Shown here: positions 4,732 to 58,277 of the stretch, in pieces
Position numbering within the stretch: the first letter of the stretch is position 1
How the letters are laid out: each line of letters opens with the position of its first letter
DNA from: Candidatus Zixiibacteriota bacterium
GTDB taxonomy: Bacteria > Zixibacteria > MSB-5A5 > JAABVY01 > JAHJOQ01
NCBI GenBank assembly: GCA_018820315.1
Contig: JAHJOQ010000152.1
Span: 1-58,277, forward strand
DNA length: 58,277 nucleotides
Reading direction: 5' to 3'
Notes under the pieces: model-generated
Seen by the model: only the letters and a program-made list of their open reading frames with translations
Told to the model about the DNA's origin: nothing
The model's database searches: none
Made by a program: the position numbers and the translations under genes

Positions 4732-7700
4732 ATGAAATCCTCCGCAATACTTGCCGTAATGATTCTCGTCTTTCTTGGAGGTGTATCTCCGGCTACCGGA
4801 CAGGATACCGGCATCCCCGACTCTGCACGGTTTGAGCCGAATCCAGCCACGTGGACGATAAACTCCGATGCCGATTCGGTATTCTCAATCGAGCTCTGGG
4901 GATTCAGTGACCAGAACATAGGTGCTTTGTCACTTGGTTTCGAGTTGCTTATCGATGGCGGGAGTGGAATCAGTCTTTATGACTCGCTAATTGTGGTTGA
5001 TACATTCATTTTCGATGCAGCATTAGAGTGGGATATCTTCGGCTATGCTAGATCGTGTCTGCAGCCGGAATACGGATCGCAGCACCTGGGCTTCAATGGT
5101 TTTCTGATGGGCGGGCTGGGATTTTATGGTTACATGCTGCAGCCCTCCATGCCAACCAAGCTCGGTGATCTGTATGTGAAAGTAATAAATGCATATGATC
5201 TTCTGGAGTCGTTTGAGATTGTTGTCGACTCGGCGTTCTATCCGCCGGCAGGTTCCTTCAAATTCTCGCCCGGCAGGCGGACATTCTTGGTCGGCTATGC
5301 TCCGCAATTCGCATCAGAGACGATCATCGTTGAGAATAATCTCGGAATACCAGTGATTCCGGAGATTAATCTGACACCTGATGTATTCGAATTTACTGCC
5401 GAACCTGATGGCGTTGATCCGTTTCCTCAGATGATGCAGATCAGTAACTCCGGCAACGGAACGCTCCAATGGACGGCGTCTGACGATGCTGATTGGCTGA
5501 CGTTATTCCCATCAGACGGTGTCGGTGACAGCCCCTGCACGCTAGCTGTTGACATAACCGGCCTCCCAGTGGGTCAATACACTGCGACGGTGATGGTCTC
5601 AGATCCCGAAGCAGCCAATAGCCCGCAATATGCAACGGTGACTCTGAACATGGTGGATGTGCCGGCAATCATTGCACTCGATCCCACGAGCTTCCTGTTT
5701 GAAGCAATAGAGGGGGGTGAGAACCCTATCGGGCAGATTCTATCGATTTACAACGGCGCGAAGGGAGAATTGAACTGGTTGGCATCCGATGATGCTGATT
5801 GGCTTGCGCTAAGTCCTGAGTCGGGAGTCGGCAACGGTACCTGCACGCTGTTTGTCGACATCTTTGGGCTTGCAGATGGAGACTACAGCGCGACTGTGAC
5901 AATCTCTGATCCGGAGGCACCGAACAGCCCGCAGACAGCCGGTGTAGCCTTGCATGTTCAGGACAATTTGCCTCTTATCATGCTCACTCCGTCATCATTC
6001 CAGTTTTATATATCTTCAGGCAGCCTGGATCCGCCTCCGCAGGAAATGTCGATCCTTAACGGTTGGATGGGCGAACTGAATTGGTCGGTATCGGATGATG
6101 CAGACTGGCTCACGCTTGATCCTGTTTCCGGAATCGGTGATGGCATTTCCACGCTATCGGTTGCAACCAGCGGTCTTCCAGACGGAGTTTACAATGCCAC
6201 CGTAACTGTCACTGACCCGGGAGCATCGAACAGTCCACAGACTGCACCTGTCTTACTGATTGTGGAACCACAACCGGGAGAACCGGGGGATGATTGCTCG
6301 GAGCCTATCCTGGTTTCTCTGCCTGCCGATCTCTACGATCATTACTTGAACACTACATGCGGCAGGTTGAACTACTATGATGAAACTTGTCTCGGATCAT
6401 ACGATGGCGGTGAAGACATCATCTATGAAATCACCGTTGACTATCCGATTATGGTAGACTTCAACCTCGATCCCAACGGCACTCCTTGGAGTGGCATGCT
6501 GCTGGATGACGCATGTCCGCCCGATCCGGTGAACTGCCTGGCGATGACGACCAACAGTTCCGGTTCTCCAATGTTCATGGATGCTCAGTTTCTCGACGCT
6601 GGCGTATACTATGTTATGATCGATACATGGCCTGCGCCCGATTGCATACCGAGCTTTGACTTTTGCATCACTGAGATAGCTCCGCCTGGCTGGGGATTCG
6701 ACTGCGATGCACCTATAGAGGTTCTGCTACCGGATGATCTGCCGTATGTCGATCCGAATCAGACGACTTGTGGGATGACCAATGCTTATAGCAGTACGTG
6801 TCTCGGGTATTACGATGGTGGCGAGGATGTTCTGTATGAGTTGCAGGTTTCGATACCATCCACCGTTCTGGTCTCGCTGGATCCCAAAGGTACTAACTAT
6901 ACTGGTTTTGTGCTGGATGATAACTGTCCTCCAGATCCGGCCGACTGCATAGCGTTTGCAACTGCCGGAAGCAGTGGTAGTCCGTATGAGATTCCACCGG
7001 TATTTCTCAGCACAGGAACATACTATATCATGGTTGACACTTGGCCAAGCCCCAACTGTATCCCTGACTTCGACCTGTATCTGGATGTTCCTATTCCGCC
7101 GGGTAACCTGACAGTAGATCCATCAGAGTTTGATTTTGGCACCGTTGATGAAGGTGAGAATGGTTCTGATGTGCTGACTTTGGGCAATGAAGGCGGTTCT
7201 TCAATTGAGTACTCTGTATCTGTGGAGTATGGTCCGACGGTTCCGCCCGAAATCGACGGCGCATATGTGATGACTAACGACAAGTACTTACCCGGGACAA
7301 CGATGGATGTTGAATTCGTACTCGCCAACGACAGCCAGGATGCGGAATGGCTCGATGAGGTCACCATTACATTTCCGGCGGGAGTGATAGTGAACTCTTC
7401 GACCGACTTCGTCGTGCAGGAAGCTCCGGGTCACTATCTGCAGTATGACGGCTCGACTGGAGAAGAGGTCACCGTTACATGGTTTGACTACAATGGCGGA
7501 TACGGCAACATCTATGCTACCGAAGTCGCGGTAGCTACGATGAATCTCACCTTCGCCGATTCGCTTGATGGCGATGTCTCTTTCGACTTCACGATATCTG
7601 GCGACGACTATGGCGGTGATCCGCATGATGTTGCTGGGTCTTTTGTAATCAGCCAGGCTGATCCGAGTGAGAGCTGGCTCACCCTGACTCCACCATCCGG

Positions 7701-8439
7701 AACGGTGATGCCGGGCGAAACCACCCCACTTGCAGTGGCATGGCATACTTCCGGCCTGTACAACGGTACACACGAGGCAGACATTGTAATATCACACAGT
7801 GGTATGAGCTCGATAGAAATCGTGCCGGTTCAGATCACTATCATCAATGGACCCGCCAAGGCGGAATTCGCCAATGCTGTGTACTATATGTATTACATGT
7901 TTGCTTATGATCCCATGTATGCTTCTGCGTACGTCGGCAACTTCAGCCCTCCGTATACTGCTAACGATGTGGCATTGTTGACAGTGAATGGCGAACTTGC
8001 CGAAATCGTTGGAGTACTGTCCGACTACCCGGGATTTGATGGAGAAGTACTAGAGGTCTCCGTGGCGCTGACTCCATTCCTGGAGCCGTATGGAGCTCCT
8101 GTCGATACATCGCGGCATCTATTCTCTGCGGACGGTGTGTACGGAGACGCTTTTGCCTTTGAAGGCGCTGGCAGTGTCAATCTGATCGGCAAGTACTCCG
8201 GGGACACGAGGCAGTGGATTCTCCCGGACGATGAAGTCGTTCTGCACGGTGATGCCGATGCTTCCGGATATCTGGATATAGACGACGCAGTGAAGGTGAT
8301 CGAGTTGATATTTACTGGCGGGATTATTCCCGGTCCGATGATGATAGCCGATTGCGATTGCTCAGACTCCGTCGACATTGACGATGTCGTATATCTGATT
8401 GCGTATATCTTTTTGCACGGTCCATATCCTTGCCATTAG
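4732..8439 (+). CDS. Large exported BACON/PPC/dockerin protein
   Basis: The 1235-residue protein starts at ATG behind GAAAGGAAGG. Residues 1-24 are a signal peptide ending 'ATGQ'. Residues 25-200 are the N-terminal domain shared with the 2705 gene. Three BACON-like domains follow (about 205-310, 310-410, 410-515; recurring 'SDDADWLTL'), then two PPC-like domains (about 520-655 and 658-785; 'TCLG.YDGGED', 'YYVMIDTWP'). Next come the 'FDFGTV..GENGSD' Ig-like region and the long region shared with the first gene, and finally a dockerin pair (from about 1165; 'GDADASGYLDIDD', '[21 protein letters not shown]'). It looks like a fusion of the architectures of its two upstream neighbours, a sign of module shuffling after tandem duplication. 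Expected to be cell-surface or secreted; the function is unknown. Confidence 0.92.
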   Translation: MKSSAILAVMILVFLGGVSPATGQDTGIPDSARFEPNPATWTINSDADSVFSIELWGFSDQNIGALSLGFELLIDGGSGISLYDSLIVVDTFIFDAALEWDIFGYARSCLQPEYGSQHLGFNGFLMGGLGFYGYMLQPSMPTKLGDLYVKVINAYDLLESFEIVVDSAFYPPAGSFKFSPGRRTFLVGYAPQFASETIIVENNLGIPVIPEINLTPDVFEFTAEPDGVDPFPQMMQISNSGNGTLQWTASDDADWLTLFPSDGVGDSPCTLAVDITGLPVGQYTATVMVSDPEAANSPQYATVTLNMVDVPAIIALDPTSFLFEAIEGGENPIGQILSIYNGAKGELNWLASDDADWLALSPESGVGNGTCTLFVDIFGLADGDYSATVTISDPEAPNSPQTAGVALHVQDNLPLIMLTPSSFQFYISSGSLDPPPQEMSILNGWMGELNWSVSDDADWLTLDPVSGIGDGISTLSVATSGLPDGVYNATVTVTDPGASNSPQTAPVLLIVEPQPGEPGDDCSEPILVSLPADLYDHYLNTTCGRLNYYDETCLGSYDGGEDIIYEITVDYPIMVDFNLDPNGTPWSGMLLDDACPPDPVNCLAMTTNSSGSPMFMDAQFLDAGVYYVMIDTWPAPDCIPSFDFCITEIAPPGWGFDCDAPIEVLLPDDLPYVDPNQTTCGMTNAYSSTCLGYYDGGEDVLYELQVSIPSTVLVSLDPKGTNYTGFVLDDNCPPDPADCIAFATAGSSGSPYEIPPVFLSTGTYYIMVDTWPSPNCIPDFDLYLDVPIPPGNLTVDPSEFDFGTVDEGENGSDVLTLGNEGGSSIEYSVSVEYGPTVPPEIDGAYVMTNDKYLPGTTMDVEFVLANDSQDAEWLDEVTITFPAGVIVNSSTDFVVQEAPGHYLQYDGSTGEEVTVTWFDYNGGYGNIYATEVAVATMNLTFADSLDGDVSFDFTISGDDYGGDPHDVAGSFVISQADPSESWLTLTPPSGTVMPGETTPLAVAWHTSGLYNGTHEADIVISHSGMSSIEIVPVQITIINGPAKAEFANAVYYMYYMFAYDPMYASAYVGNFSPPYTANDVALLTVNGELAEIVGVLSDYPGFDGEVLEVSVALTPFLEPYGAPVDTSRHLFSADGVYGDAFAFEGAGSVNLIGKYSGDTRQWILPDDEVVLHGDADASGYLDIDDAVKVIELIFTGGIIPGPMMIADCDCSDSVDIDDVVYLIAYIFLHGPYPCH

Positions 8440-31070: not shown

Positions 31071-33230
31071 ATGCATTATCGACACTCACCACTGCTGATG
31101 CTTATCAGTGCGACCCTCGTCGCTCTCTTGGCTGTCTCAGCCCTTGCAACACCACCAAATGTGAAATTGAATTCAGATACGACACCGTATCTTCAGAATG
31201 AAGAACAGATCTGGGTCAGCCCCGTGAATTCCAATATTGTCATTGCCGACTGGCGCGATTGGCGTCTCGGCTATCGCAGAGTCGGGATTGGAGTCTCGAC
31301 CGATGGCGGCGCTACCTGGTCAGACTCTCTGTTCACCGATGTACCGTATGACAGGCAGTCCGATCCCTGTCTTGTTGGCGATCAATTCGGGACTTTCTAT
31401 GCAAACATGCTGAACTATAACTCAGGGGGCATCGGCGAGAGCTTCATCGTCGTCTATCGCTCGACCGATGGAGGCGTCTCATGGACGGGCCCCGTCGCAA
31501 CAAACCCGTGGATTCCCGGTACATTCGAGGACAAGCAGTTCACTGCTGTCGATAGAACCGGTGGTGCCCATGACGGCAACTACTACTGCTCATGGACAAG
31601 ATTCTATAGTGGCCCGACACGAATGATACTTGTCAGATCAACCGACGGGTGCCAGACATTTGATGACACGGTGAAAGTTGGCCCCTCTCCATATTATGAG
31701 AACTGCGGTGGGTTCTTCGATGCAGGGCAGTTCTCAATTCCGATTGTCGACGCCGACGGAGACGTGCATGTCTTCTGGCAGGGTTATGATATCGATCCAT
31801 GGGAGTGCAGTTTCCAGTGGGCGATTCAACACACATGGTCTACCGATGGTGGGTTGACGTTCAATCTGGCAGCTCCGGCATTCTACAGCAACTTCGGCTA
31901 CAATAATGTCGATGGCGGAATTGACACGTACGGAATGCCGAATGGCGATTGCGACATATCTGGCGGCCCATACAACAATACCATTTACATCTCACAATGC
32001 CAGTACGCACCGGGCGGCGCTCCTGAGACTGATGTCACCGTTCGCAAATCGACCGACAACGGACTGACCTGGACCGATAGACAGGTGGTCAACGATGATC
32101 CTCCCGATCAGAACATCGATCAATTCCATCCCTGGTTGGTCGTTAACGAAGACGGTGTCGTACTGCTGATTTTCTACGATCAGCGCGTCGGCCCCGTTTT
32201 GCGCGAGTTTGATGCATTCTTCAGCGCATCATTTGATGGTGGCGAGACTTATATCACGAATATGCGCCTCTCAGAAGTATCGAGCAGTCCCGATTTTGCT
32301 TTTTCGATGAAGTCGCATGTTCCGAACGATGTCGTAGAACCAGACGGCACTATGCTGGTGAAGAATCAGCCGGTGCGCCAGCCGATGGCTGGTCTGTTTG
32401 CTGAGTATATCGGCGTTCATTCAAACCACGATACGGTTAACACTGTCTGGACAGATACCAGAAATGGCAATCAGGATGCGTACGGTGCGAGATTCATGAT
32501 GCCATTCCTTAAACCGAGACTATATCTGCCGGAAAATGGTGATGCGGATTTCACTGAATTCCCTGCATTCAGGTGGTCGACCTGCTGGCACGAGGATCAG
32601 GATTCCTATCGTCTCGAGCTCAGCGAGGATCCTCTCTTCTCCTCAATCGACTATTCGTTTGATGGCTTGACCGATAACAACTACGTTCCGTCGATTGCTC
32701 TCGACAGCAATGTCTATTTCTGGAGAGTTAAGGCGTTCAGGCCAGATGGCGATTCAACTGAGTATTCCGACCTTTTCCACTTCGGAGGCGAGTATACATG
32801 CGTCGATTCAGACGGAGACTATTATGGTGACCCGGGGCATCCGGAGAACACTTGCGAACTTGATAACTGCCCTGATACCTACAATCCAAACCAGGCAGAC
32901 TCCGACGTCGACGGTGTCGGCGATCTGTGTGATAATTGCATTGATGTGTTCAATCCGGGTCAGGAAGATTCTGACGGTGATCAGATCGGTGACGCGTGTG
33001 ATCACATCTGTGGAGATGTTGACACCAGCGGGGCAGTTGATATAGATGACGTTGTCTATCTCATAGCCTACATATTCTCCGGCGGCCCAGCACCTGCGCA
33101 GTTGGAATCAGGCGACGCCGACTGCAGCGGAGGCATCGATATCGACGATGTCGTTTATATCATCGGATACATATTCTCTGGTGGACCACCACCATGCGAC
33201 ACCGACAACAACGGTGTTGCTGACTGCTAA
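31071..33230 (+). CDS. Exported BNR-repeat / thrombospondin-3 / dockerin protein
   Basis: The 719-residue protein starts at ATG after TGGAGGA. Residues 1-25 are a signal peptide. Residues 35-460 hold sialidase-type BNR (Asp-box) repeats: '[11 protein letters not shown]', '[10 protein letters not shown]', 'STDGGLTF', '[10 protein letters not shown]' and 'SFDGGETY', which points to a beta-propeller. About 485-575 is an Ig/Fn3-like domain ('[21 protein letters not shown]'). Residues 578-650 are calcium-binding thrombospondin type 3 repeats ('[21 protein letters not shown]'). The end is a dockerin-like pair ('[25 protein letters not shown]' split over both loops) plus a short '[10 protein letters not shown]' tail. 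Asp boxes alone do not prove sialidase activity; catalytic Arg/Tyr residues were not identified. Confidence 0.9.
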
Positions 33231-44404: not shown

Positions 44405-44560
44405 CATGGAAGAACGCACGCGGTTTTATACGGCCACATCGGACGCAAACATCTTACTATTGGATTCCTCCCATACTTTTCCCCATGTGAGTATGTGATC
44501 AGATTCTTCGGGATGCACCTATCCTACTGTATTCCAATCACATGCAAATCATAGATTCGT

Positions 44561-44575
44561 GGGCATTCTGTTTGC
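44561..44575 (+). promoter_or_regulatory. Sigma-54-like -24/-12 site
   Basis: GGGCAT-N5-TTGC matches the sigma-54 consensus TGGCAC-N5-TTGC at 8 of 10 positions, with GG and GC correctly 10 bases apart. It ends 32 bases before the flagellin-like ATG. Sigma-54 often drives flagellin genes, but no activator site was found. The predicted leader is short, though it still contains the ribosome site. Confidence 0.4.
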
Positions 44576-44607
44576 GCAGTCAGGCAGTGGGGCAGAAGGA
44601 TCGATTT

Positions 44608-45381
44608 ATGTCCGGTCTGAATATCGCATCGACCATCGGCTCTCTGAATACTGTGCGGAATCTTTCCGCCATGCACCGGTCTATCCGTAAGACTGCGTCG
44701 AGGCTGGCGTCCGGCAAGAGAATCACCAGAGCGGCTGATGATTCCGCCGGACTGGTGGTGTCAGAGCAAATGCGCGCACAGGTGGCATCGCTGACTCAAC
44801 AGATCGTTAATCTTGACAATGTCATCAAAAGAAACAAGACAGCCGATTCGCATCTGGTCGAGATGGAGGATCATCTGATCGAAATGCGCGAGATTGCGAC
44901 CGCAGCCGCCTCAACTGGCGGCATCGAACAGGGGCAGGTAGAGGCTTATGAGGATGAGCTGGATCGCTCTGCTGAGGCTCTGGACAAGATGGCTGACGAT
45001 ACCATGCTCGGTGACTCCGCACTGCTCGACGGTTCCGAGAACAGCGTCGCTGAAATCCAGCGACTTGGACATTTCGATCTGTCCGACGTAGAGAAGGTCA
45101 AGGAAGCGGTGACCAGAATAGATGAAAGAATTAAGGACATTCAAAAAGTGCATGCGGGACTCGGTGCGGCAATTTCTCGTGAAATCGAGTCGATGCGCGA
45201 GAGCCTCGCAGTCGCACACAGAAATCTCGTTGAAACTGAATCTGATATTCGCGATAGCGGCATGGCATTGGAGCAGTCGGGCTTTGTATCACGGCTTGTG
45301 CGATCCGATCTCGGCAGTTCCCTTCTCGCGCAGGGGAATCTGGTGTCACAGTCGGTATTCGGCCTTGTGACCGATCCATAG
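44608..45381 (+). CDS. Flagellin-like protein
   Basis: The start is the ATG after AGAAGGA, giving 257 residues and a flagellin-like N terminus: 'SGLNIASTIGSLNTVRNL', 'RLASGKRITRAADDSAGLVVSEQMRAQV', then a coiled-coil D1 region ('TADSHLVEMEDHLIEMREIATAAAS'). The C-terminal D1/D0 half follows ('ESMRESLAVAHRNLVETESDIRDSGMA', end 'ASLLAQ'-like 'SSLLAQGNLVSQSVFGLV'). It consists only of D0/D1 with no variable D2/D3, shorter than usual flagellins. It could be a minor flagellin or a hook-junction-like protein. No other flagellar gene is in the window. Confidence 0.8.
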   Translation: MSGLNIASTIGSLNTVRNLSAMHRSIRKTASRLASGKRITRAADDSAGLVVSEQMRAQVASLTQQIVNLDNVIKRNKTADSHLVEMEDHLIEMREIATAAASTGGIEQGQVEAYEDELDRSAEALDKMADDTMLGDSALLDGSENSVAEIQRLGHFDLSDVEKVKEAVTRIDERIKDIQKVHAGLGAAISREIESMRESLAVAHRNLVETESDIRDSGMALEQSGFVSRLVRSDLGSSLLAQGNLVSQSVFGLVTDP

Positions 45382-47944: not shown

Positions 47945-49135
47945 ATGAGAACATCCATGCGCCGCATTGTGCCGACTTTGGCGATTTTACTCGTTTTGTC
48001 GATCGTGGGGGCGAGCAATATTCACGCTTCGCCTGACGCGGTTCAACTCTACGTCAATGTAGAGGATACTGTTATGAAGAGAGATGCAGACAGTGTTGTC
48101 GTCTCGGTATATATGGAGACTTTCTCTGACAGTGTCGGAGGGTTCGAGCTCTGGTTCTTCATCGGCCAGGATGAGGTCCTCAGGTTCAGATCGGATTCAG
48201 TCTGGACATGTGACACAGTCTACACTGGTTGCACAGACTCTACGTGTACCGCATATATCGAGGATTCCTGTATCGCATGGGAATACATTCCGTCCAGTTG
48301 CGCGGATACGACTGAAACGTGCGATTGGGTGATGCTCGGCGCCTCAATCCTTGATGGTTCGCTGATTGAGAACTGGGACTATGTTTCGACGAATGTGCTC
48401 GATGCGAACAGGAGGCAGCTGAAAATCGTCGGTATCGCTAACGAATCTCCCGGACCACCGAAAGCTATTCCACCGAATGCGTCTAACAACCTGCTGTTGA
48501 GAATAGTCGCTGAGGTCCGCGAGGACAAGCTCGATTCGCTTGAATGCGCCGATTCGACCTGCCTTGAGTGGGATGGGCCGGACTGTCTTTATTGGCATCG
48601 CTATAATTGCGAGATCGCGCTGGTTCCGGATTCTCTCTGCCCGGATAGCGTGGCCCAGCAGTGGGGAATTACTCCCATTCTCATCTGGGACAATTCAACC
48701 AGATTCTCAAATCCTCGGGATGAACTCATCGGATGGCACTGGCAATACGCGTGTATCGATTCGGAGTGCATCCTGTGGGAGGACACGGTTTGCATTGGTT
48801 GGGAGTGCACTGCGTGGGATTATGAGGACTCTTCATACGTTGTCGACACGACCAAAATCAAGTATTTCGATGGCCAGGTTAACCTCAATTGCGCCACGTG
48901 CGATTACAATGTCGGCAATGCCGATGCATCGATTGATGTCGATATCGACGATGTTGTGTACCTGATTGCCTATATCTTCGTTGGAGGGCCGGCTCCGGTA
49001 CCGGAGTATGGCGCCGGTAACGCAGATTGCAACGGCGAGATTGATATCGACGATGTGGTATTCCTGATAGCATACATTTTTGTCGGTGGCCCGGCACCAT
49101 GTGATTGTGAAGACCTACCGCCAGCTCCGTTTTGA
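47945..49135 (+). CDS. Exported Cys/Trp-rich dockerin protein
   Basis: The 396-residue form starts at the ATG after AAGGAGGA, giving a signal peptide (residues 1-29, '...NIHASPD'). The N-terminal region resembles a cohesin-like beta domain ('VVSVYMETFSDSVGGFELWFF'). It is interrupted by three Cys/Trp-rich inserts of the form C-x-D-S-x-C-x3-(W/Y)-x3-5-C-x2-(W/Y): 'CTDSTCTAYIEDSCIAWEY', 'CADSTCLEWDGPDCLYW' and 'CIDSECILWEDTVCIGW'. A paired dockerin-like module ends the protein ('[19 protein letters not shown]', 'CNGEIDIDDVVFLIAYIFVGG'). It has no C-terminal sorting domain, unlike its three downstream neighbours. The many Cys suggest disulfides outside the cell. Confidence 0.87.
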   Translation: MRTSMRRIVPTLAILLVLSIVGASNIHASPDAVQLYVNVEDTVMKRDADSVVVSVYMETFSDSVGGFELWFFIGQDEVLRFRSDSVWTCDTVYTGCTDSTCTAYIEDSCIAWEYIPSSCADTTETCDWVMLGASILDGSLIENWDYVSTNVLDANRRQLKIVGIANESPGPPKAIPPNASNNLLLRIVAEVREDKLDSLECADSTCLEWDGPDCLYWHRYNCEIALVPDSLCPDSVAQQWGITPILIWDNSTRFSNPRDELIGWHWQYACIDSECILWEDTVCIGWECTAWDYEDSSYVVDTTKIKYFDGQVNLNCATCDYNVGNADASIDVDIDDVVYLIAYIFVGGPAPVPEYGAGNADCNGEIDIDDVVFLIAYIFVGGPAPCDCEDLPPAPF

Positions 49136-49486: not shown

Positions 49487-52096
49487 ATGAAACGCAGTCT
49501 TTTGGCAATCTTATTGCTTCTTCTCGCTTGCAGTTTTGCATTTGGCCAGATCACTGACTACGTCAAGTGGAATACTCCTGTCAAGTACAATGAAGGACAG
49601 GCTGGTGACGTTGCCCTCCTGGTGACGTTCCAGTGCGCAGCTCCGGTTGGCAATGTGAAGGGTGTTAGCCTCGGCTTTGCCCTCACGGCTACCGGTGCCG
49701 CGAATTTCACTTACGTTACTTACACCAAGCACCACAACACCGACTGGTTCGATCTGGGTGGTCTGCTCGTCGATGTCTCACTGATGCCGAACTCGTTCTT
49801 GATGGGCGGTGCTGCTCTGGGTGCAGGTATGCCCCGTGTGACCGATGAGCCGCTCCTTACCGTTGGCTTGATGTTCGGTGTTGGTGTAGGCCAAATCTGT
49901 ATCGACTCCGCGTTCTTCCCGCCAGCTGGCGCATGGAAGTTCTCGAATACGACCTGCGACCCCGTTGGCGGTCCGCGTCCGTATTTTGTTGATGCAGCCG
50001 GCAGCGATGTAGCTCACCCGATCTGCGTCGATGTTCTGGAGGTTACATGCGTTGACCCGACCATCGACCCGATTGTCGGTGGTGTACTGACCGGCAACCA
50101 CTGCAATGGCCTCAGCCACACTTTCACAGGTGATCCAGGTAATCTGGATGGCGTTCCTGCCACTCCGGTGGTCTGGACAGTGACAAATGGTCCCGGTTCG
50201 TTTGCCGGCGCCGTTTACTCGGCTCCAGCAGCTACCACTGGTACCTATGCGGTTGAAGTCACTGCGACCAACAGCTGTCTTGGCACTGCCACGTATAACT
50301 TCAATCTGGTCTTCACGAACCAGGCTCCGTCGATTCTGCCGGCTACTACGCCTGCGCAGATCGGTCAGGGCGGGTTATACTCGGTCGACTTCGACGCAAC
50401 CGATCCTAACAGCTGCGATCCTCAGTTGTGGTCGGTCGTTATTACTCCGGCCCCGGCTGGCGCCTATTCCATTGATGGAACCGGTGTGCTCAACTGGCAG
50501 ACTGTTGACCCGGACGATGGTGGCATCACCTTCCAAGTCTGTGTGACAGTTGATGATGGTGAGCCCGACAAGGCGACCGCTACGCATTGCTTCGACGTCG
50601 AAGTCCTGACTCTGGTGCCTTTCGAAATCCAACTCGAGAAGGTAGAGGGTCAGCTTCAGGGTCATTATGCCAGCGTTTCGATCTTCCTGAACAAGGGGAC
50701 TGAGACGTTTGGTGGTTTTGACTTCCTGGTAGCTTACGATGCATCAGCCTTGACATTCATGGGTGCAACTCTCGGTGCTCAGCTCAATGCTAAGTGGGAG
50801 TATTTCACCTATCGTTTCGGCTGGAATGGCAACTGCGACGGTGCGTGCCCGAGCGGTATGCTCCGTGTAGTCGGTATTGCCGACATCAACAACGGCCCGA
50901 ATCATCCGGATCCTGCCTGGCTGGTCAAGCAGAACCCCGATGGTGTACCGGATGAGCTGGTTGTATTGACCTTCTACGTCACCAATGATCGCACGTTTGA
51001 GTGCATGTACGTCCCGGTCCGCTTCTTCTGGCACGACTGCGGCGACAACGCGATCTCGAGCCCCATGGGTGACATTCTCTACATCTCCAGGTTCGTGTAT
51101 GACTACGACTGGACACTCGGATACAGGGACATCACCGGCACGATCCACTACGGTGGTCACTGGTGGTTGTTTGGCCCGCCGTATCCATTTGTCGACTTCA
51201 TAGAGAACACTGCCTGTATGAACCCGGATCCTGAAAAGCCGGATCCACTTCGCTTCATCGACTTCATACAGGGTGGTGTTGACATCATCTGTTCCGAGGA
51301 TATCGATGCTCGCGGCGACCTCAACATGAATGAAGTTGCCAACGAGATCGCGGACGCGGTACTCTACACCAACTACTTCATTTACGGCCTCAGCGTATTC
51401 ACATACACTGAAGGCTCGATCGCAGCTTCCGACGTGAACGCTGACGGTCGCGTGTTGACAGTTGGTGACCTTGTTTACCTCGTACGTATTATCACGGGCG
51501 ATGCACTTCCGTACCCGAAACTCTCACCGTTCGCAAACAGCGTAACGATTGAGCAGGGCTCGGTAGTCACCACGAACTCGCAGTCCGACATCGGTGCTGC
51601 TCTGTTTGTCTTCAGTGGCGAAGGCGAAGCTAACTTGCTCGTCGACGGCATGAAGATGGAAAGCAGCGTAGTAGACGGTCAGCTTCGCGTGCTGGTATGG
51701 TCCGATGGTACGAACCATGTTCCGGCCGGCGAGCAGAACCTGATCAGCGTAACCGGCGATCTGACGATCGTCGAGGCCGAGGTTTCGGATTACTATGGTA
51801 ATCTGATGAACTCGACCGTGGTCGAGAAAGTTATCCCGACCGCATTCGCGCTGAATCAGAACTATCCGAACCCATTCAACCCATCCACCGATATTACTAT
51901 CAATCTCCCGACTCAGTCGAGCTGGAAGCTTGATATTTATAACGTCGCTGGTCAGTTGGTCAGAACATTCTCCGGTAACGCGATTGGCGAAGTCACGGTT
52001 ACTTGGGATGCTGCTGGCGCGGCTTCGGGTATTTACTTCTACAAGGCCACCGCGGGTCAGTATACTGACACCAAGAAGATGGTTTTGATGAAGTAA
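49487..52096 (+). CDS. Exported cohesin-like/Ig/dockerin-like protein with type IX-like sorting domain
   Basis: The 869-residue protein starts at ATG after AAAGGAG. Residues 1-20 are a signal peptide ('LACSFAFGQ'). About 22-190 is a cohesin-like beta domain ('FFPPAGAWKFSN'); 195-280 an Ig-like domain; 283-378 an He_PIG-type Ig domain ('VDFDATDPNSCDPQLW'). About 380-560 is a second cohesin-like domain ('VSIFLNKGTETFGGFDFLVAYDAS'). About 600-685 is a dockerin-like pair ('GDLNMNEVANEIADAVLYTNYF', 'SDVNADGRVLTVGDLVYLV'). The last 85 residues are a sorting domain ('NQNYPNPFNPSTDI', 'LDIYNVAGQLV', 'GIYFYKATAG', 'KKMVLMK') of the kind recognised by type IX secretion in FCB bacteria. Codon choice looks strongly biased to a few codons (GGT, AAC, GAC), suggesting high expression. 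Confidence 0.9.
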   Translation: MKRSLLAILLLLLACSFAFGQITDYVKWNTPVKYNEGQAGDVALLVTFQCAAPVGNVKGVSLGFALTATGAANFTYVTYTKHHNTDWFDLGGLLVDVSLMPNSFLMGGAALGAGMPRVTDEPLLTVGLMFGVGVGQICIDSAFFPPAGAWKFSNTTCDPVGGPRPYFVDAAGSDVAHPICVDVLEVTCVDPTIDPIVGGVLTGNHCNGLSHTFTGDPGNLDGVPATPVVWTVTNGPGSFAGAVYSAPAATTGTYAVEVTATNSCLGTATYNFNLVFTNQAPSILPATTPAQIGQGGLYSVDFDATDPNSCDPQLWSVVITPAPAGAYSIDGTGVLNWQTVDPDDGGITFQVCVTVDDGEPDKATATHCFDVEVLTLVPFEIQLEKVEGQLQGHYASVSIFLNKGTETFGGFDFLVAYDASALTFMGATLGAQLNAKWEYFTYRFGWNGNCDGACPSGMLRVVGIADINNGPNHPDPAWLVKQNPDGVPDELVVLTFYVTNDRTFECMYVPVRFFWHDCGDNAISSPMGDILYISRFVYDYDWTLGYRDITGTIHYGGHWWLFGPPYPFVDFIENTACMNPDPEKPDPLRFIDFIQGGVDIICSEDIDARGDLNMNEVANEIADAVLYTNYFIYGLSVFTYTEGSIAASDVNADGRVLTVGDLVYLVRIITGDALPYPKLSPFANSVTIEQGSVVTTNSQSDIGAALFVFSGEGEANLLVDGMKMESSVVDGQLRVLVWSDGTNHVPAGEQNLISVTGDLTIVEAEVSDYYGNLMNSTVVEKVIPTAFALNQNYPNPFNPSTDITINLPTQSSWKLDIYNVAGQLVRTFSGNAIGEVTVTWDAAGAASGIYFYKATAGQYTDTKKMVLMK

Positions 52097-52119
52097 CCGT
52101 TTTGCTTCATAGACTGGAT

Positions 52120-52141
52120 GAGGGGGAGGTTACTCCCCCTC
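52120..52141 (+). terminator. Hairpin terminator
   Basis: A perfect 9-bp stem (GAGGGGGAG / CTCCCCCTC) with loop GTTA begins 24 bases after the stop of the 49487 gene. The following T-run is weak (GTCTTG). Confidence 0.65.
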
Positions 52142-52616
52142 GTCTTGAAATTAACCTGAGGAGAAGGGAGTTGATGGGAAGTACTTGTACTGAAAGAATA
52201 GATGGGAATCGAAAGCAGGCATGCAAAAATGATGATCGAGCAATCAAGACCGACAGGAAATGTAGGATTGTTTGCGATCATCTTTCTTTTTTATGGTCTA
52301 GAGCATTATCTCGTATGTCTGCATACGTTTGCAGAATATCTGAAACTTGAATACTGCAACTTTGTACTTATCAATTCAGCTGCTCATGGACGAGTCGATC
52401 GAGCTGCCAGGTTAATAGTAAGAGAAGGTTGGTAGGCTTAGAGTAATTCGTTACAGGATGGGAACTTACATAACTGCTGACATGTTCAAACTCTGGACAT
52501 GTAACAGGCCTGCAATGTCGGATCGCGGCATACCTGTTGCTGAACCAGAGGTTGGGAAATCACATGTTTACGGACGGATTTCGGAAGTGAAACAAGATTA
52601 TAGGAACAGGTCAGTT
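52142..52616. other. Intergenic stretch, no confident gene
   Basis: These 475 bases separate two exported-protein genes. Overlapping frames of 82 and 77 codons (52102-52350, 52202-52435) are present. One has a purine-rich AGGAGAAGGGAG before TTGATG at about 52170, but neither product has recognisable coding character. The AT-rich composition hints at a promoter for the next gene; no clear -35/-10 pair was found. Confidence 0.35.
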
Positions 52617-55028
52617 ATGACAAGAATATTATCAGCTCTGCTTGCATTATCCATATGTGCGGTAACCGCTCTTGGCCAGGATGATCCGCACGGTATAACA
52701 GACACGATCCGTATTGCCGATGTGACTGCTGTTCCAGGCGACAAGATCCAAGTCGAAGTTTATATTTTTAGTGATATCGAGCTCCTCAGTTTGACGGTCC
52801 CCGTGAAGTTTGCTAAAGAGGTCCTCACCCTTGATTCGATCAGGTTCGACGGCTCCAAGCTGGAGTATCTGAGCAGTCACCCCTACGCAATCGATAACGA
52901 GGCAGGTACCGGGCTGATAGGCGGAATCGTGCTGACAGAAGAACCGATTCCAGCCGGAACGGGGCTTCTTGCGACACTCGATTTCACGGTCGCCCAAGCC
53001 GCTGAAATCGGGCAGACGTATATTTTTGATACTGTGTTCGTGCCCCCGGCCGGTTATGTTCTGCTGGTCACAGTCGATCATGACAAGGTTCGCCCCGCGT
53101 TCGCACCGGGTCACCTGACTATCGTCGACCAGAACAAAGCCCCCATTTTCCGTGAGATTCCTGACCAGGTTGTTTTCGAGGGCGATTCTGTCACGTTTAT
53201 GGTCAGCGCACTGGACCCGGATGGCGGGAGTATTTCATACTCTTCAATGAAATTGCCGAACGGCGCGTCGTTCGATGCTGCCACCGGTCAGTTTACCTGG
53301 ATTCCGCCTTACACCGGACCGAATTCCGCTGTCGGAAGCCCTTGTATAGTCAAATTCATTGCTTCCGATGGAGAGAACTCGAGCCACTGTGCTGTTGATA
53401 TCACGGTTCTTAATCGAAACCGCGCTCCAGTCGTGAACACTCCGGATACTGTCGGCTGTGATGTCGGTGATTCAATCTTCCTCGTCATTTCAGCAGCCGA
53501 TCCCGATCTGGAAGCTGTGGAAGTGGATGTGACCAGTCTTCCATACGGAGCTGACTATCAGCGAGGGAATCCGGGGTATGTCAGCTGGAGAACTTCTCTG
53601 TCTGACTCGGGCAGCTACGAACTACTGGTCACAGCGACCGATGCCATCGGAGCTGAAGCCACTGAGACTCTGACGCTGTTGGTACATCCCGCAGCGCCAT
53701 GCGAGTTGGATATATCTGAAACACAGGCAATCAGCGGCAATACAGGAATCGTAGAAGTCAGCCTGCGCAACAGAGTGTTAATCGATCATATAAACCTTCT
53801 GATTCACTATGATCCGACTGCCTTGACACTGCTGTCAACATCGGCGGTCGGTACTCGTGTTGATTATTGGGAGCAGTTCATTGAGACCATAAATGAGATC
53901 GACGGTCGCGTTTGGCTCGATGCTGGCGCGAACCTCCCGGGTCACGATGGTAACGATCCACTGGAGATTGGGGATGGACCTGTGATGAAACTCAATTTCC
54001 TGGTAACATCCGATCTTGATTTTGCAGGTCAGCTTGTGCGAGTTGAGTTTGAATTTGTCGACACGCTCTCTCTCCTGGACAATACGCTAATCACGCCTGA
54101 AGGAGAAGTCCTCGGTCAGGGCGATGTCAGCTATGATAACGGTTCCATTTTCATTAAACAGCATGACGCTCTGATCGGCGATATTAATCTCAATTCAGTG
54201 CCGTTTGAAGTTGGCGATATTGTCTACTTCACAAACTATTTTATCGATCCGGCATCTTACCCGCTTGACGGTGACCGTTGGGGAAACTCCGACATTAATC
54301 AGGATGGCCGACCGGGCACAATCGGCGATCTGATCTATCTTATCAACATAGTCAGCGGAAGTGGTGCAGGCAAAATCTCTGCGGACGAGCACGCCGGTAG
54401 CACGGCGAATGTAGATGCTCGTGTCGTATCCACCGGAACTGATATAACTGTCGAAAGCGCCTCACCGGTTGGTGGCGCATACTTTGTGATATCTTTGGAA
54501 GGCGAATCGTCAATTGAGGCGGTCGCGGGAGGTGATCATAGGAAGGTTGATATTCACCAGTCGTTTGACGGCGAGCTGCTGCGAGTACTGGTGCTGAGCA
54601 AGGATGCCAGCGGTATTGCTGCAGACGGTGAGCCGGTTCTCAGGCTTTTGCATGACGGTGGTTTGAGGGTCTCAATCAAAGAAATGATGTTTGCTGATCA
54701 GCAGGGGTTCTCGCTTACGGCGGAGTTGGGCAAAGCAACACAATTGCCGGCGTCGTTTACGCTCGATCAGAACTATCCTAATCCATTCAATCCATCGACA
54801 AATATCGGATTTTCATTGCCTCGCGAAGGACAGGTCAATCTAAAGATATATAATATTGAAGGTAAGCTTGTAACTACGCTGGTAGATGGGCTGATGCCTG
54901 CAGGCCGACACACCGTGGTCTGGGATGGCAGAGATAACACGGGCAGAGCTGCCGCGTCCGGCATCTATTTCTACCGACTCAATACTGGAGAATTCAGCGA
55001 CACGAGAAAGATGACGCTGATCAAGTAA
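52617..55028 (+). CDS. Exported cohesin-like/Ig/dockerin-like protein with type IX-like sorting domain
   Basis: The start is placed at the ATG giving a signal peptide ('MTRILSALLALSICAVTALGQ', 803 residues total); upstream in-frame starts would bury it. About 26-165 is a cohesin-like domain ('VTAVPGDKIQVEVYIFSDIELLSLTVPVKF'). Two He_PIG-type Ig domains follow (about 172-270 and 273-362), then a second cohesin-like domain (365-510; 'INLLIHYDPTALTLLS'). A dockerin-like pair is at about 515-590 ('GDINLNSVPFEVGDIVYFTNYF', 'SDINQDGRPGTIGDLIYLI'). The end is the sorting domain ('DQNYPNPFNPSTNIGF', 'LKIYNIEGKLV', 'GIYFYRLNTGEF', 'RKMTLIK'). The next gene starts 48 bases later and is probably cotranscribed. 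Confidence 0.9.
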   Translation: MTRILSALLALSICAVTALGQDDPHGITDTIRIADVTAVPGDKIQVEVYIFSDIELLSLTVPVKFAKEVLTLDSIRFDGSKLEYLSSHPYAIDNEAGTGLIGGIVLTEEPIPAGTGLLATLDFTVAQAAEIGQTYIFDTVFVPPAGYVLLVTVDHDKVRPAFAPGHLTIVDQNKAPIFREIPDQVVFEGDSVTFMVSALDPDGGSISYSSMKLPNGASFDAATGQFTWIPPYTGPNSAVGSPCIVKFIASDGENSSHCAVDITVLNRNRAPVVNTPDTVGCDVGDSIFLVISAADPDLEAVEVDVTSLPYGADYQRGNPGYVSWRTSLSDSGSYELLVTATDAIGAEATETLTLLVHPAAPCELDISETQAISGNTGIVEVSLRNRVLIDHINLLIHYDPTALTLLSTSAVGTRVDYWEQFIETINEIDGRVWLDAGANLPGHDGNDPLEIGDGPVMKLNFLVTSDLDFAGQLVRVEFEFVDTLSLLDNTLITPEGEVLGQGDVSYDNGSIFIKQHDALIGDINLNSVPFEVGDIVYFTNYFIDPASYPLDGDRWGNSDINQDGRPGTIGDLIYLINIVSGSGAGKISADEHAGSTANVDARVVSTGTDITVESASPVGGAYFVISLEGESSIEAVAGGDHRKVDIHQSFDGELLRVLVLSKDASGIAADGEPVLRLLHDGGLRVSIKEMMFADQQGFSLTAELGKATQLPASFTLDQNYPNPFNPSTNIGFSLPREGQVNLKIYNIEGKLVTTLVDGLMPAGRHTVVWDGRDNTGRAAASGIYFYRLNTGEFSDTRKMTLIK

Positions 55029-55076
55029 CATGAATATACCGGAGAATACTACTCAATATCAGAAGAGGTTAATCAT

Positions 55077-57356
55077 ATGTTAAGATTCAAGTTTTTGGTA
55101 GTGGCTGCCGTCATTCTGCTCGTTGCAGGGGTATGGACGGCAGCGTTCGCCCAGATCGAGACGGTAGGGGATACTATCCGCGTTGTCGACGCTTACGGCG
55201 ATCCGGGCGATACCATACCTGTGATGCTGTACCTGGCAAACACAATAGAAGTGGGCGGATTGAACTTCCTGCTCAGATTCGACAGCACTCACATGGCACC
55301 TGCCTACGACTGGGCTTCTATCAACACGTGGGGAGACGAGACGGCGCCTTTGCACTATGATCTTATCAATCGCGGGGCGGGGAAGTTCCTATACACGAAT
55401 TCCATCAATTCAATCGACACAAGTTCGACTTTCGGCCACATTGTCACTGGCGTCTTTATCGGCGATCCGGACTTGGCGGACGATATCGCGGTTGGTGCAG
55501 GTACGTTCGTTAGATTCTATGTATACATTAAACCGACTGCGATAGCAGGCGATTCCATCGCAATCACTCCGTTTGACGAGCAGTTCAGCGGCGGGCGAAT
55601 GAACGAGTATTTCGACCCGGATGGCGTCGACAGCAGATACCCGTTTAAGATACGGGGATGGGTCCATGTCAGCGGCACACCGCCAGAACCGGATCATAAC
55701 GAGCCACCTTTCTTCACGCAGCCATCGTCTACTGTGTTCACGGTGGAACAAGGCAATCAAGTGCAATTTGTGGTTGGTGCCGCTGATCCCAATACAGGGC
55801 AGAGGCTGGAACTGAGCATGGTCAGTGGCCCATCCGGTTCCACATTCTCCGATGCCATTGGCTTCGGAAGTGTGTCGAGTTCCTTCAGTTGGACGCCAAA
55901 TATCTCTCAGGCCGGCTCATTCAATGCCTCTTTCAGAGTGGAGGATGATTCTGCTGCGGTCGCCAATTTCAGTGTGGTGATCAACGTTACTGCTCCCGAA
56001 ATCGAAGAAGATTTGCTCTATACCACATCTCAGGAAGCGCATCATCTTGTTAGGGGTGGCATTCCGGGTGTGAACGATGTCAGTGTTCCGGTCAACCTGA
56101 GTGACCTCAATGTTCTTTACGGAATTCAATTCGATCTCACGTATGATTATTCCGTGATGTCGATGGATTCGATCACGCCGACAGATCGGCTTTCCGGATT
56201 CGAGACGTATACCGAGGTGATTGGGCCGGGAGTCACGAGGCTTCTAACCTTTCATCTCGACGGTGACAGGATTGCAGCCTCAGTTACATCGAACGCGATC
56301 TTCTATTGCTGGTTCACGATGAAATCTACAGCTTCACCAGGGTACTACCGTTTCAAACTTAGCAATGGTGTTGCTGCAGTAAGTCCCGACCCGGAACAGG
56401 GCTCGGTGGCCATCCTCGTGGATACGCTCGGCACAATTGCCGTCGACGCTCTCGGTGATGTGAATCTCGACAGGAAAGTCGATGTGGCTGACCTCGTTTC
56501 AGTGGTCGCATACATCATTGGAAATTCCTCTCTGTCAACCAGGAATCACCGGGCGGGCGACATAAATGCCGATAGCTATGTAAACGTGGTCGATCTCGTG
56601 GGAATCATAAACATGATCTTCACGAATGTCAGCCCGTCTCCAGTGCCGAAAGCCATGTTTGCAGGCGGGTCGGCAGAACTCGACATCGTCATGATGGCAG
56701 AGAATTCACGTGGTGATCGCACCCTTGCACTGAGAGGGGATCTACCAACTGAAGTTGCGGGAATGCAGTTCGATCTGAAATTCGATCCCGAGCTTGTCGA
56801 GCTGGGTCAGCCCGAACGGACAGAATTGACCACAGGTCTCGATCTGTTAGTGAAAGATCAGGGTAACGGCCGACTCCGCGTACTTATGTACGTCGACCCG
56901 AACGACCTGAAGGACGTCGTAGAATCGGGAGTAGGCGATTTGCTTACTGTGCCGATATACAGCATTGGTGATTATGCAGTCTCAGATGACGCGGTTACTA
57001 TCGAGGGAAGCGTTTTGTCCGACCCATCAGCGCAGGAGATTCCTGTGTCGAGAAAGACCGGACAGCTTCCGCAAACATTCAGCCTGGAACAGAACTATCC
57101 TAATCCATTCAACCCGGAAACTCACATCAGCTTTTCGATTGATGGACAACAGGTGCAGAGCGTACGATTGGATGTCTATAACATTCTGGGTCAGAAGGTC
57201 ACAACACTGCTTGATGACAATCTGGCGCCCGGGAGTTACCAGGTCACGTGGGACGGCACAAGTTCTTGCGGGGAAAAACAGGCATCCGGAGTCTACTTCT
57301 ATAACATCGTGGTAGGTGAGAGCCGCGAGACGAAGAAGATGGTGCTCGCAAAGTAA
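55077..57356 (+). CDS. Exported cohesin-like/dockerin protein with type IX-like sorting domain
   Basis: The 759-residue protein starts at ATG after AGAGG. Residues 1-26 are a signal peptide ('WTAAFAQ'). About 28-200 is a cohesin-like domain ('VVDAYGDPGDTIPVMLYLANTIEVGGLNFLLRFDS'); 205-305 an He_PIG-type Ig domain; 312-455 a second cohesin-like domain. Residues 458-530 form a classical type I dockerin ('GDVNLDRKVDVADLVSVVAYII', 'GDINADSYVNVVDLVGIINMIF'). About 535-655 is a third cohesin-like segment ('EVAGMQFDLKFDPELVEL'). The sorting domain ends it ('EQNYPNPFNPETHI', 'LDVYNILGQKV', 'GVYFYNIVVGES', 'KKMVLAK'). With its two neighbours it forms a set that carries both partners of a cohesin-dockerin pair in one chain. 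Confidence 0.9.
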   Translation: MLRFKFLVVAAVILLVAGVWTAAFAQIETVGDTIRVVDAYGDPGDTIPVMLYLANTIEVGGLNFLLRFDSTHMAPAYDWASINTWGDETAPLHYDLINRGAGKFLYTNSINSIDTSSTFGHIVTGVFIGDPDLADDIAVGAGTFVRFYVYIKPTAIAGDSIAITPFDEQFSGGRMNEYFDPDGVDSRYPFKIRGWVHVSGTPPEPDHNEPPFFTQPSSTVFTVEQGNQVQFVVGAADPNTGQRLELSMVSGPSGSTFSDAIGFGSVSSSFSWTPNISQAGSFNASFRVEDDSAAVANFSVVINVTAPEIEEDLLYTTSQEAHHLVRGGIPGVNDVSVPVNLSDLNVLYGIQFDLTYDYSVMSMDSITPTDRLSGFETYTEVIGPGVTRLLTFHLDGDRIAASVTSNAIFYCWFTMKSTASPGYYRFKLSNGVAAVSPDPEQGSVAILVDTLGTIAVDALGDVNLDRKVDVADLVSVVAYIIGNSSLSTRNHRAGDINADSYVNVVDLVGIINMIFTNVSPSPVPKAMFAGGSAELDIVMMAENSRGDRTLALRGDLPTEVAGMQFDLKFDPELVELGQPERTELTTGLDLLVKDQGNGRLRVLMYVDPNDLKDVVESGVGDLLTVPIYSIGDYAVSDDAVTIEGSVLSDPSAQEIPVSRKTGQLPQTFSLEQNYPNPFNPETHISFSIDGQQVQSVRLDVYNILGQKVTTLLDDNLAPGSYQVTWDGTSSCGEKQASGVYFYNIVVGESRETKKMVLAK

Positions 57357-57574: not shown

Positions 57575-58277
57575 ATGGCACCTGGTGATACAAGACGAAG
57601 GTGGAATCCATGGCCGAGTGTTCGGTTCAAGGCTTGCGCTCCAGCTCTGGTTGGTCTGCTGTTGATGATGTTTCCCATAACAGCAGTAGCCCAGAATCAG
57701 GCTCCGGTATTGACTCCCATTGGTGCGAAAGCAGTAGATGAGGGCGTTAACCTGAACTTCGGTATATCGGCCTCTGATGCTGATGGAACTATTCCGACGC
57801 TGACTGCCGAGGATGTTCCTCTCAACGCTACGTTTGTAGATAATGCCAATGGCACCGGCACGTTCGACTTTAATCCCGACTTCACACAGTCAGGTCCATA
57901 TAATGTGAGATTCATCGCATCAGACGGCGCACTCGCAGACACAGAAGTTGTCGCGATCACGGTTAGTCATGTAAACCTTGCTCCTGTGCTTGCAGGTATT
58001 GGCGCTCAAGTCGTTGACGAAGGCGCGAACCTGAACATCGGTATATCGGCCTCTGATGCTGATGGAACTATTCCGACGCTGACCGCCGAAAACATTCCGA
58101 CCAACGCTACGTTTGTAGATAATGCCAATGGCACGGGAACGTTCAACTTCAATCCTGACTTCACTCAGTCTGGTCCATACAATGTCAGATTCATCGCATC
58201 TGATGGAGTACTTGCTGACACTGAAATAGTAGCTATCACAGTCAACAACGTGAATCTCGCTCCAATAATGACTGCCA
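57575..58277 (+). CDS. Exported protein of tandem Ig-like repeats, 3' partial
   Basis: The frame opens at ATG after GAAAGGA and runs off the window with no stop (234 codons visible). An Arg-rich N region and a hydrophobic stretch form a signal peptide ending 'ITAVAQN' (about residue 41). Two copies of a 93-residue Ig-like (He_PIG/cadherin-like) repeat follow: 'APVLTPIGAKAVDEG...' and 'APVLAGIGAQVVDEG...', with a third beginning 'LAPIMT'. The repeats are nearly identical even at DNA level, so the gene has expanded recently by tandem duplication. Such proteins are usually long surface adhesin- or filament-like molecules. The C terminus, and whether it has a dockerin or sorting domain, lies outside the window. 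Confidence 0.85.
   Translation, partial: MAPGDTRRRWNPWPSVRFKACAPALVGLLLMMFPITAVAQNQAPVLTPIGAKAVDEGVNLNFGISASDADGTIPTLTAEDVPLNATFVDNANGTGTFDFNPDFTQSGPYNVRFIASDGALADTEVVAITVSHVNLAPVLAGIGAQVVDEGANLNIGISASDADGTIPTLTAENIPTNATFVDNANGTGTFNFNPDFTQSGPYNVRFIASDGVLADTEIVAITVNNVNLAPIMTA
57697..58254 (+). repeat. 279-bp tandem coding repeat
   Basis: Two units with a period of 279 bp (93 codons) are visible. For example, the bases from 57761 and from 58040 (GGTATATCGGCCTCTGATGC onward) are identical for more than 40 positions, and a second identical block encodes 'NATFVDNANGTGTF' in both. A third unit begins at the window end. Confidence 0.85.

Follow-up and report, generated by a model that had tools for sequence, protein, structure and literature searches.

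Cohesins and dockerins are "plug and socket" protein parts known mainly from machines that digest cellulose, and the locus described here raises the question of what they do in three neighbouring exported proteins of a Candidatus Zixiibacteriota bacterium (assembly GCA_018820315.1; genome of 3.78 Mb, G000 below). The proteins, P1, P2 and P3, are those at 49487, 52617 and 55077 of contig JAHJOQ010000152.1, of which positions 1 to 58,277 were analysed; this whole stretch of 58,277 nucleotides is the window. Here, we describe the domain folds and architecture of P1-P3, the type IX secretion genes of the genome, the conserved gene cluster in which P1-P3 lie and the signature of the dockerins, which together form the observed basis for reading the cluster as a type IX-anchored, calcium-dependent, cellulosome-like surface scaffold of cohesins and dockerins that carries fibres and proteases. 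We consider this reading probable. Comparisons were made within the genome itself and across a phylum set of 60 Zixiibacteriota genomes, for which a census was taken from searched and fetched stretches.

The original prediction placed cohesin-like, dockerin-like and sorting domains together in each of the three proteins, and fold, profile and tail cut-offs all agree with it. Pfam recognises cohesins in P2 domain A (1.5e-7) and P3 domain B (6.8e-15), and none in P1. Two AlphaFold2 models were made with ten sequences per alignment, one of P3 and one of P1 residues 370-790, with mean confidence of 61 and 54 and predicted template-modelling scores (pTM) of 0.37 and 0.43, respectively; because both pTM values are low, the relative placement of domains was not interpreted. 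P3 domain C (residues 527-661) was modelled with predicted local distance difference test (pLDDT) values mostly of 80-90, and solved cohesins occupy rows 1-40 of its VIA matches, the best with Z 14.8 and a root-mean-square deviation (rmsd) of 2.6 over 129 residues. For P1 residues 375-606, in a low-confidence model, rows 1-36 of the Foldseek matches are all cohesins (best 1e-5), and VIA gives Z 12.4. Both domains, P3 C and P1 B, were missed by Pfam, and their structural matches are almost exclusively solved cohesins, with identity to known cohesins as low as 10-19% in the structural alignments. A five-sequence profile, built from P1 B, P2 B, P3 B, P2 A and the P1 B homologue of L089 (contig JAOUEU010000103.1 of a Candidatus Zixiibacteriota metagenome-assembled genome (MAG), which carries full-length cluster homologues), matched cohesins in 10 of 10 PDB entries, the best at 1.8e-4. 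By structural matches and PDB profile search, the testable beta domains thus adopt the cohesin fold, as the earlier fold check had asked. For domain A (in P1 and P3) and the short domain C (in P1 and P2), which lie in regions where the models are poor or do not reach, the cohesin-like assignment comes from in-house profiles only. Single-protein sequence searches of the PDB yielded weak dockerin matches for P3 and FlgD for P2; cohesins came up by alignment-based search only.

By in-house profiles, P1, P2 and P3 share one layout: a signal peptide, seen in all three as an N-terminal hydrophobic signal, cohesin-like domain A, an immunoglobulin (Ig)-like region, cohesin B, a dockerin, cohesin-like domain C and a type IX sorting tail. 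All features given here and below with window coordinates lie on the forward strand. P1 (49487-52096) comprises domain A (49553-50044, in-house profile only), the Ig-like region, cohesin B (50612-51298), a dockerin with 13-residue loops (51314-51517), short domain C (51533-51832) and the tail (51863-52084; TIGR04183). P2 (52617-55028) comprises cohesin A (52692-53129; PF00963), two Ig-like domains, cohesin B (53694-54164; in-house profile and a member of the A/B profile that matches PDB cohesins), a dockerin with 13-residue loops (54177-54365), short domain C (54402-54731) and the tail (54774-55013). P3 (55077-57356) comprises domain A (55158-55670, in-house profile only), one Ig-like domain, cohesin B (55998-56447; PF00963), a dockerin with 12-residue loops (56451-56618; PF00404), cohesin C (56655-57059) and the tail (57096-57344). 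The tails, all of type A, score above the curated cut-offs of both PF18962 and TIGR04183. Dockerin, tail, cohesin and domain C are each present in 21 of 21 orthologues of P1 and of P2; P3 orthologues retain the dockerin in 19 of 21, the tail in 20 of 21 (one is cut by a contig end) and the cohesin and C in 21 of 21. The same profiles match 0 to 3 of 63 open reading frames (ORFs) upstream of the cluster. With the architecture kept in 19-21 of 21 orthologues of each protein, the layout is not a matter of chance. In Kryptoniota and Ignavibacteriales, two proteins (L081:3519-8945 and L092:3123-8906) also have the C-terminal order dockerin, cohesin-like domain, type IX tail, and this C-terminal module may extend beyond Zixiibacteriota.

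Export through a type IX system calls for its machinery, and the genome search proposed earlier recovered SprA (701 bits in sum), PorU (643 bits, against an equivalog cut-off of 420) and, directly after PorU, a PorV-family gene. About 45 type IX tails are encoded in the genome. PorV/PorQ-family genes number about ten in G000 (contigs C121, C59, C17, C87, C64, C86, C53, C72, C73 and C159).

The dockerins within P1-P3 are of two kinds. That of P3 passes the Pfam threshold (1.9e-6) and, like the terminal dockerins described below, has two duplicated F-hand calcium loops of 12 residues each (type I-like). Those of P1 and P2 were missed by Pfam, and both of their calcium loops are 13 residues long, not 12, in the consensus that 21 orthologues of each protein give for the phylum. 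In the AlphaFold2 model, P1 residues 604-677 match the Ruminococcus flavefaciens dockerin 5m2o_B with Z 10.4 and an rmsd of 2.0 over 72 residues, and the P2 dockerin is homologous to that of P1. The insertion of one residue in both loops, invisible to Pfam, is strongly conserved in P1 across the phylum.

Homologues of P2 (E <= 1e-50) occur in 40 of the 60 phylum genomes, and surroundings were fetched for 20 of these loci, drawn from six families other than that of the window. The loci were chosen by P2 only, so that P0, P1, P3 and P4 in them count as independent evidence. P1, P2 and P3 follow one another in identical order and orientation in all 20 loci and in MAG L089, which has all five genes P0-P4 and is the sole full-length cluster homologue among the best 80 of 579 relatives in a whole-collection scan dominated by the type IX tail. 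Upstream lies P0 (47945-49135 in the window), an exported protein with a terminal dockerin (48917-49093, signature ID/ID) and no type IX tail, found in L089 and in 19 of the 20 loci (the contig of L297 stops short of it); its orthologues have the terminal dockerin in 20 of 20, a tail in 0 of 20 and a cohesin-like domain in 17 of 20. After P3 comes P4, a giant tandem-Ig protein whose start is seen at 57575-58277 before the contig ends; it follows P3 where the contig continues, except in L298, where it was not detected, and it is cut off in L296 and L308. The tandem-Ig giants beyond P3 (L314-L321) are either separate P4 and P5 proteins or a single fusion 3,242-5,951 residues long, and the complete P5 or fused P4/P5 proteins end in a dockerin with no tail in 6 of 6 checked. 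This conserved neighbourhood of P0 and P5, together with the genome-specific dockerin signature described below, favours sorted scaffolds that are predicted to recruit dockerin-ended proteins. Separate P4 proteins share the conserved end QSYQSRFAAGFGTNFPV...PYQANAA. An alpha/beta-hydrolase gene lies upstream of P0 in ten loci and does not adjoin P0 in the window; a flagellin-like protein at 44542-45381, about 2.6 kb upstream of P0, is not conserved beside P0 elsewhere.

Besides P0, four proteins of the window end in a dockerin: those at 3-1916 (cut by the contig start; dockerin 1725-1913), 2705-4537 (4346-4534), 4732-8439 (8251-8436) and 31071-33230 (33012-33173). The original prediction had listed these five as dockerin-ended proteins that lack the sorting tail, and the dockerin pairs and the absence of tails hold; the proteins at 2705 and 4732 also carry an N-terminal cohesin-like domain, however, and given these and 17 of the 20 P0 orthologues, dockerin-ended and cohesin-bearing proteins are not separate sets. 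Terminal-dockerin proteins were defined as having no type IX tail, and the absence of the tail was therefore not used as evidence. A near-identical terminal dockerin is found on 42 ORFs of the genome by a strict pattern and on 56 by profile. The 42 share a mean pairwise identity of 61%, and their halves are symmetrical, with the same residue in both at 22 of 26 consensus positions. Dual-mode type I dockerins have such symmetry, which permits two modes of binding (PMC4728124). Cysteines stand in loop 2 and at the C-terminus in 36 of the 42, with a third before loop 1 in 20 of these, and possibly form a disulfide clasp. One small protein (L223:1328-2815, minus strand) consists of a cohesin-like domain, dockerin, cohesin and terminal dockerin with no tail, and is possibly a soluble adaptor.

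A Pfam scan of 44 dockerin-ended proteins identified 16 peptidases of six families (four C25 with propeptide, two M28, four M6, three M1, two S8 and one trypsin), and the others carry propeller, FG-GAP, BACON or TSP3 domains. No glycoside hydrolase was found in the 44 at E <= 1e-3 (at 0.1 for the five of the window). The earlier proposal of a matrix without obvious carbohydrate-active enzymes stands in that respect, but 16 secreted peptidases mean that the matrix is not enzyme-free, and tandem-Ig giants in the cluster are a further addition to it. The peptidases are encoded at L225, L229, L230, L231, L233, L234, L237, L240, L244, L245, L247, L248, L249, L250 and L258; the four C25 enzymes are gingipain-like, with propeptides and without the type IX tail.

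In type I complexes, the dockerin touches the cohesin through residues 11, 12, 18 and 19 of its first half and through the residues that mirror them in its second (PMC4728124); counted from the first calcium ligand, they fall at loop positions 10-11 and 17-18. At positions 10-11, G000 has the pair ID (74 of 85 loops), G019 has IL (33 of 40) and G036 has VA/VG (9 of 10). Dockerins of one genome have an identity of 0.50 (G000) and 0.54 (G019) at non-structural positions, versus 0.34 between genomes, a difference that 0 of 2000 permutations reached. In 6 of 6 genomes compared (G000, G019, G060 and G043 with fetched dockerins, and G013 and G057 with local paralogues), the P0 dockerin agrees with the signature of the genome that encodes it, and the dockerins of P1, P2, P3 and P5 depart from the bulk signature, with patterns of their own. 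At the level of sequence, this suggests several specificities, one common to the bulk dockerins and others private to the cluster.

The position of the dockerin within P1-P3, always directly between cohesin B and cohesin-like C, admits another explanation: the dockerin may fold back within its own chain, onto the neighbouring cohesin B or C, as an internal clasp that only stiffens or switches the protein, with no partner recruited by P1-P3. Domain C also adjoins the dockerin in all 11 proteins of the genome that combine an internal dockerin with a type IX tail (P1-P3 included), lying between the two in 11 of 11, and a cohesin stands beside the dockerin in dockerin-ended proteins as well, for example L223 and L258. 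Such folding back would serve few of the dockerin-ended proteins, however, as only 10 of the 56 detected by profile have a recognised cohesin of their own and the rest would need an outside partner; moreover, the genome-specific signature is common to proteins without cohesins, and the pTM of the models is too low to reveal any packing. We regard this explanation as unlikely.

Across the phylum set, type IX tails are present in all 60 genomes, and dockerins and cohesins in 57 each. The three dockerin-free genomes lack P2 homologues and have 0, 0 and 1 cohesin, versus at least one cohesin in 56 of the 57 others (Fisher p = 0.005 for co-absence); two of the three belong to one family, and the count is thus of two independent cases at best. 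These three genomes (G027, G039 and G059) are among the most tail-rich, with type IX tails greatly expanded to 132-242 first-look candidates.

In the scaffold that we propose, P1, P2 and P3 would be exported via Sec and then by the type IX system to the outer surface, where their cohesins would be the sockets into which tail-less partners plug their calcium-folded dockerins. These partners would be P0, the giant tandem-Ig P4/P5 and the large set of dockerin-ended secreted proteins of the genome, which includes many peptidases. Through their internal dockerins, P1, P2 and P3 are probably joined to one another in an ordered base, and they may polymerise with each other.

Several points weigh against this scaffold. 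Its surface location, the pairing of dockerins with cohesins and the holding of fibres and proteases are what we infer, and the dockerin-ended proteins still need a route of export across the outer membrane. Dockerin uniformity within a genome could stem from domain duplication, which would also make the bulk dockerins alike, so that the signature supports, and does not prove, a shared cohesin. The co-loss of dockerins and cohesins is that of three genomes from two families. Over the 60 genomes, the numbers of dockerins, cohesins and tails were compared and do not correlate (rho 0.19 for dockerins and cohesins). In G000, dockerins far exceed Pfam cohesins (53 vs 8), and G054 has 22 dockerins and zero Pfam cohesins.

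The lack of correlation between dockerin and cohesin counts, and the need of dockerin-ended proteins for a way across the outer membrane, both speak for a different explanation. On this view, an export or surface machine other than cohesins would read the terminal dockerin-like repeat as a tag for sorting or retention, and P1-P3 would be unrelated adhesins that contain cohesin folds. The repeat is uniform on 42 otherwise unrelated secreted proteins and sits at the extreme C-terminus, like sorting tags. Pfam nevertheless assigns the repeat to the dockerin family, the variable positions of the signature are those that contact cohesins (PMC4728124), dockerin-free genomes are without P2 and nearly all cohesins, and P0 and P5 adjoin cohesin proteins in the cluster, all of which leaves such a tag rather improbable. 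That cohesin folds and dockerins are plain building blocks of long adhesins (beta spacers and calcium-stabilised caps) with no specific pairing would suit the low identity to known cohesins, a fold that by itself shows no function and a domain C that precedes the sorting tail in 11 of 11 proteins of the genome and might only assist sorting, but we give it the smallest chance, as both domain types are coupled in presence and absence, the conserved cluster mixes cohesins with dockerins, and conservation at contact positions goes beyond the calcium ligands.

We return to the type IX-anchored scaffold, for which a broader form can be offered more tentatively, as one that we think somewhat less than even in its chances: a surface organelle found across the Zixiibacteriota, in which three cohesin-dockerin-cohesin proteins form a base anchored by type IX tails. 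Through dockerins of several specificities, this base would bind giant tandem-Ig fibres 3,000-6,000 residues long and dockerin-ended peptidases that can be exchanged for one another, as a protein-degrading, fibre-bearing counterpart of the cellulosome. If the proposal is true, cohesin-dockerin assembly serves more than the digestion of plant walls: it also builds the surface of a whole Gram-negative phylum, coupled to type IX secretion. It would account for the dozens of dockerin-ended proteins per genome, and provide a route of surface retention for peptidases without a sorting tail. Designed protein assembly would gain new cohesin-dockerin pairs, some of them with 13-residue loops in the dockerin.

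The conserved cluster, with dockerin-ended P0 upstream of P1-P2-P3 and tandem-Ig P4/P5 downstream, goes beyond the original prediction. In a literature search outside of which most subscription journals lay, no paper was found linking Zixibacteria with dockerins, cohesins or type IX secretion, and no report was found of the P0-P5 cluster, the cohesin-dockerin-cohesin-tail architecture, giant Ig partners or dockerins with 13-residue loops in this setting. The closest precedent is Ca. Stygibacter (Cloacimonadota), predicted to have a type IX domain on a cohesin scaffold as well as peptidases and glycoside hydrolases that end in dockerins (PMC8542988), so that the P1-P3 cluster is a variant of a predicted kind and not a new category. 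Both predictions concern Gram-negative bacteria with a cohesin scaffold that has a type IX C-terminal domain, and with dockerin-ended C25 and S8 peptidases. Ca. Stygibacter has one scaffoldin of 3,755 amino acids with tandem cohesins and carbohydrate-binding modules (CBM2/CBM3), and dockerin-ended GH18/GH57 enzymes, whereas here a dockerin sits between cohesins in each of three proteins, neither a CBM in P1-P3 nor a dockerin-borne glycoside hydrolase was found, the predicted partners include tandem-Ig giants, and the cluster is conserved phylum-wide.

With the clostridial cellulosome (type I/II), the system shares the cohesin and dockerin folds, the duplicated dockerin with symmetrical contact positions and adaptors carrying both modules. 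The clostridial assembly is anchored to a Gram-positive cell wall, and its counterpart here has a type IX tail, a predicted cargo that includes peptidases and Ig fibres, no cellulase found and a pairing that is predicted. Two features of cellulosomes are absent: the 44 dockerin-ended proteins scanned include 16 peptidases and no glycoside hydrolase at E <= 1e-3, and P1-P3 have no CBM by Pfam, though several cohesin domains per chain. The cohesin fold also occurs outside cellulose degradation in the non-cellulosomal cohesins 2xdh, which is archaeal (Archaeoglobus fulgidus), and 2jh2, 2vo8 and 2w1n, from glycoside hydrolases of Clostridium perfringens, and all four are among the structural matches of P3 C or P1 B. 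To our knowledge, none of the four is known from a conserved gene cluster sorted by type IX secretion. Finally, P1-P3 resemble type A cargo of type IX secretion in the Bacteroidota and the FCB group in their Por_Secre_tail and in the SprA, PorU and PorV-family genes of the genome; they differ from usual cargo of this type in bearing cohesins and dockerins, and many of the extracellular peptidases carry a dockerin in place of the tail.

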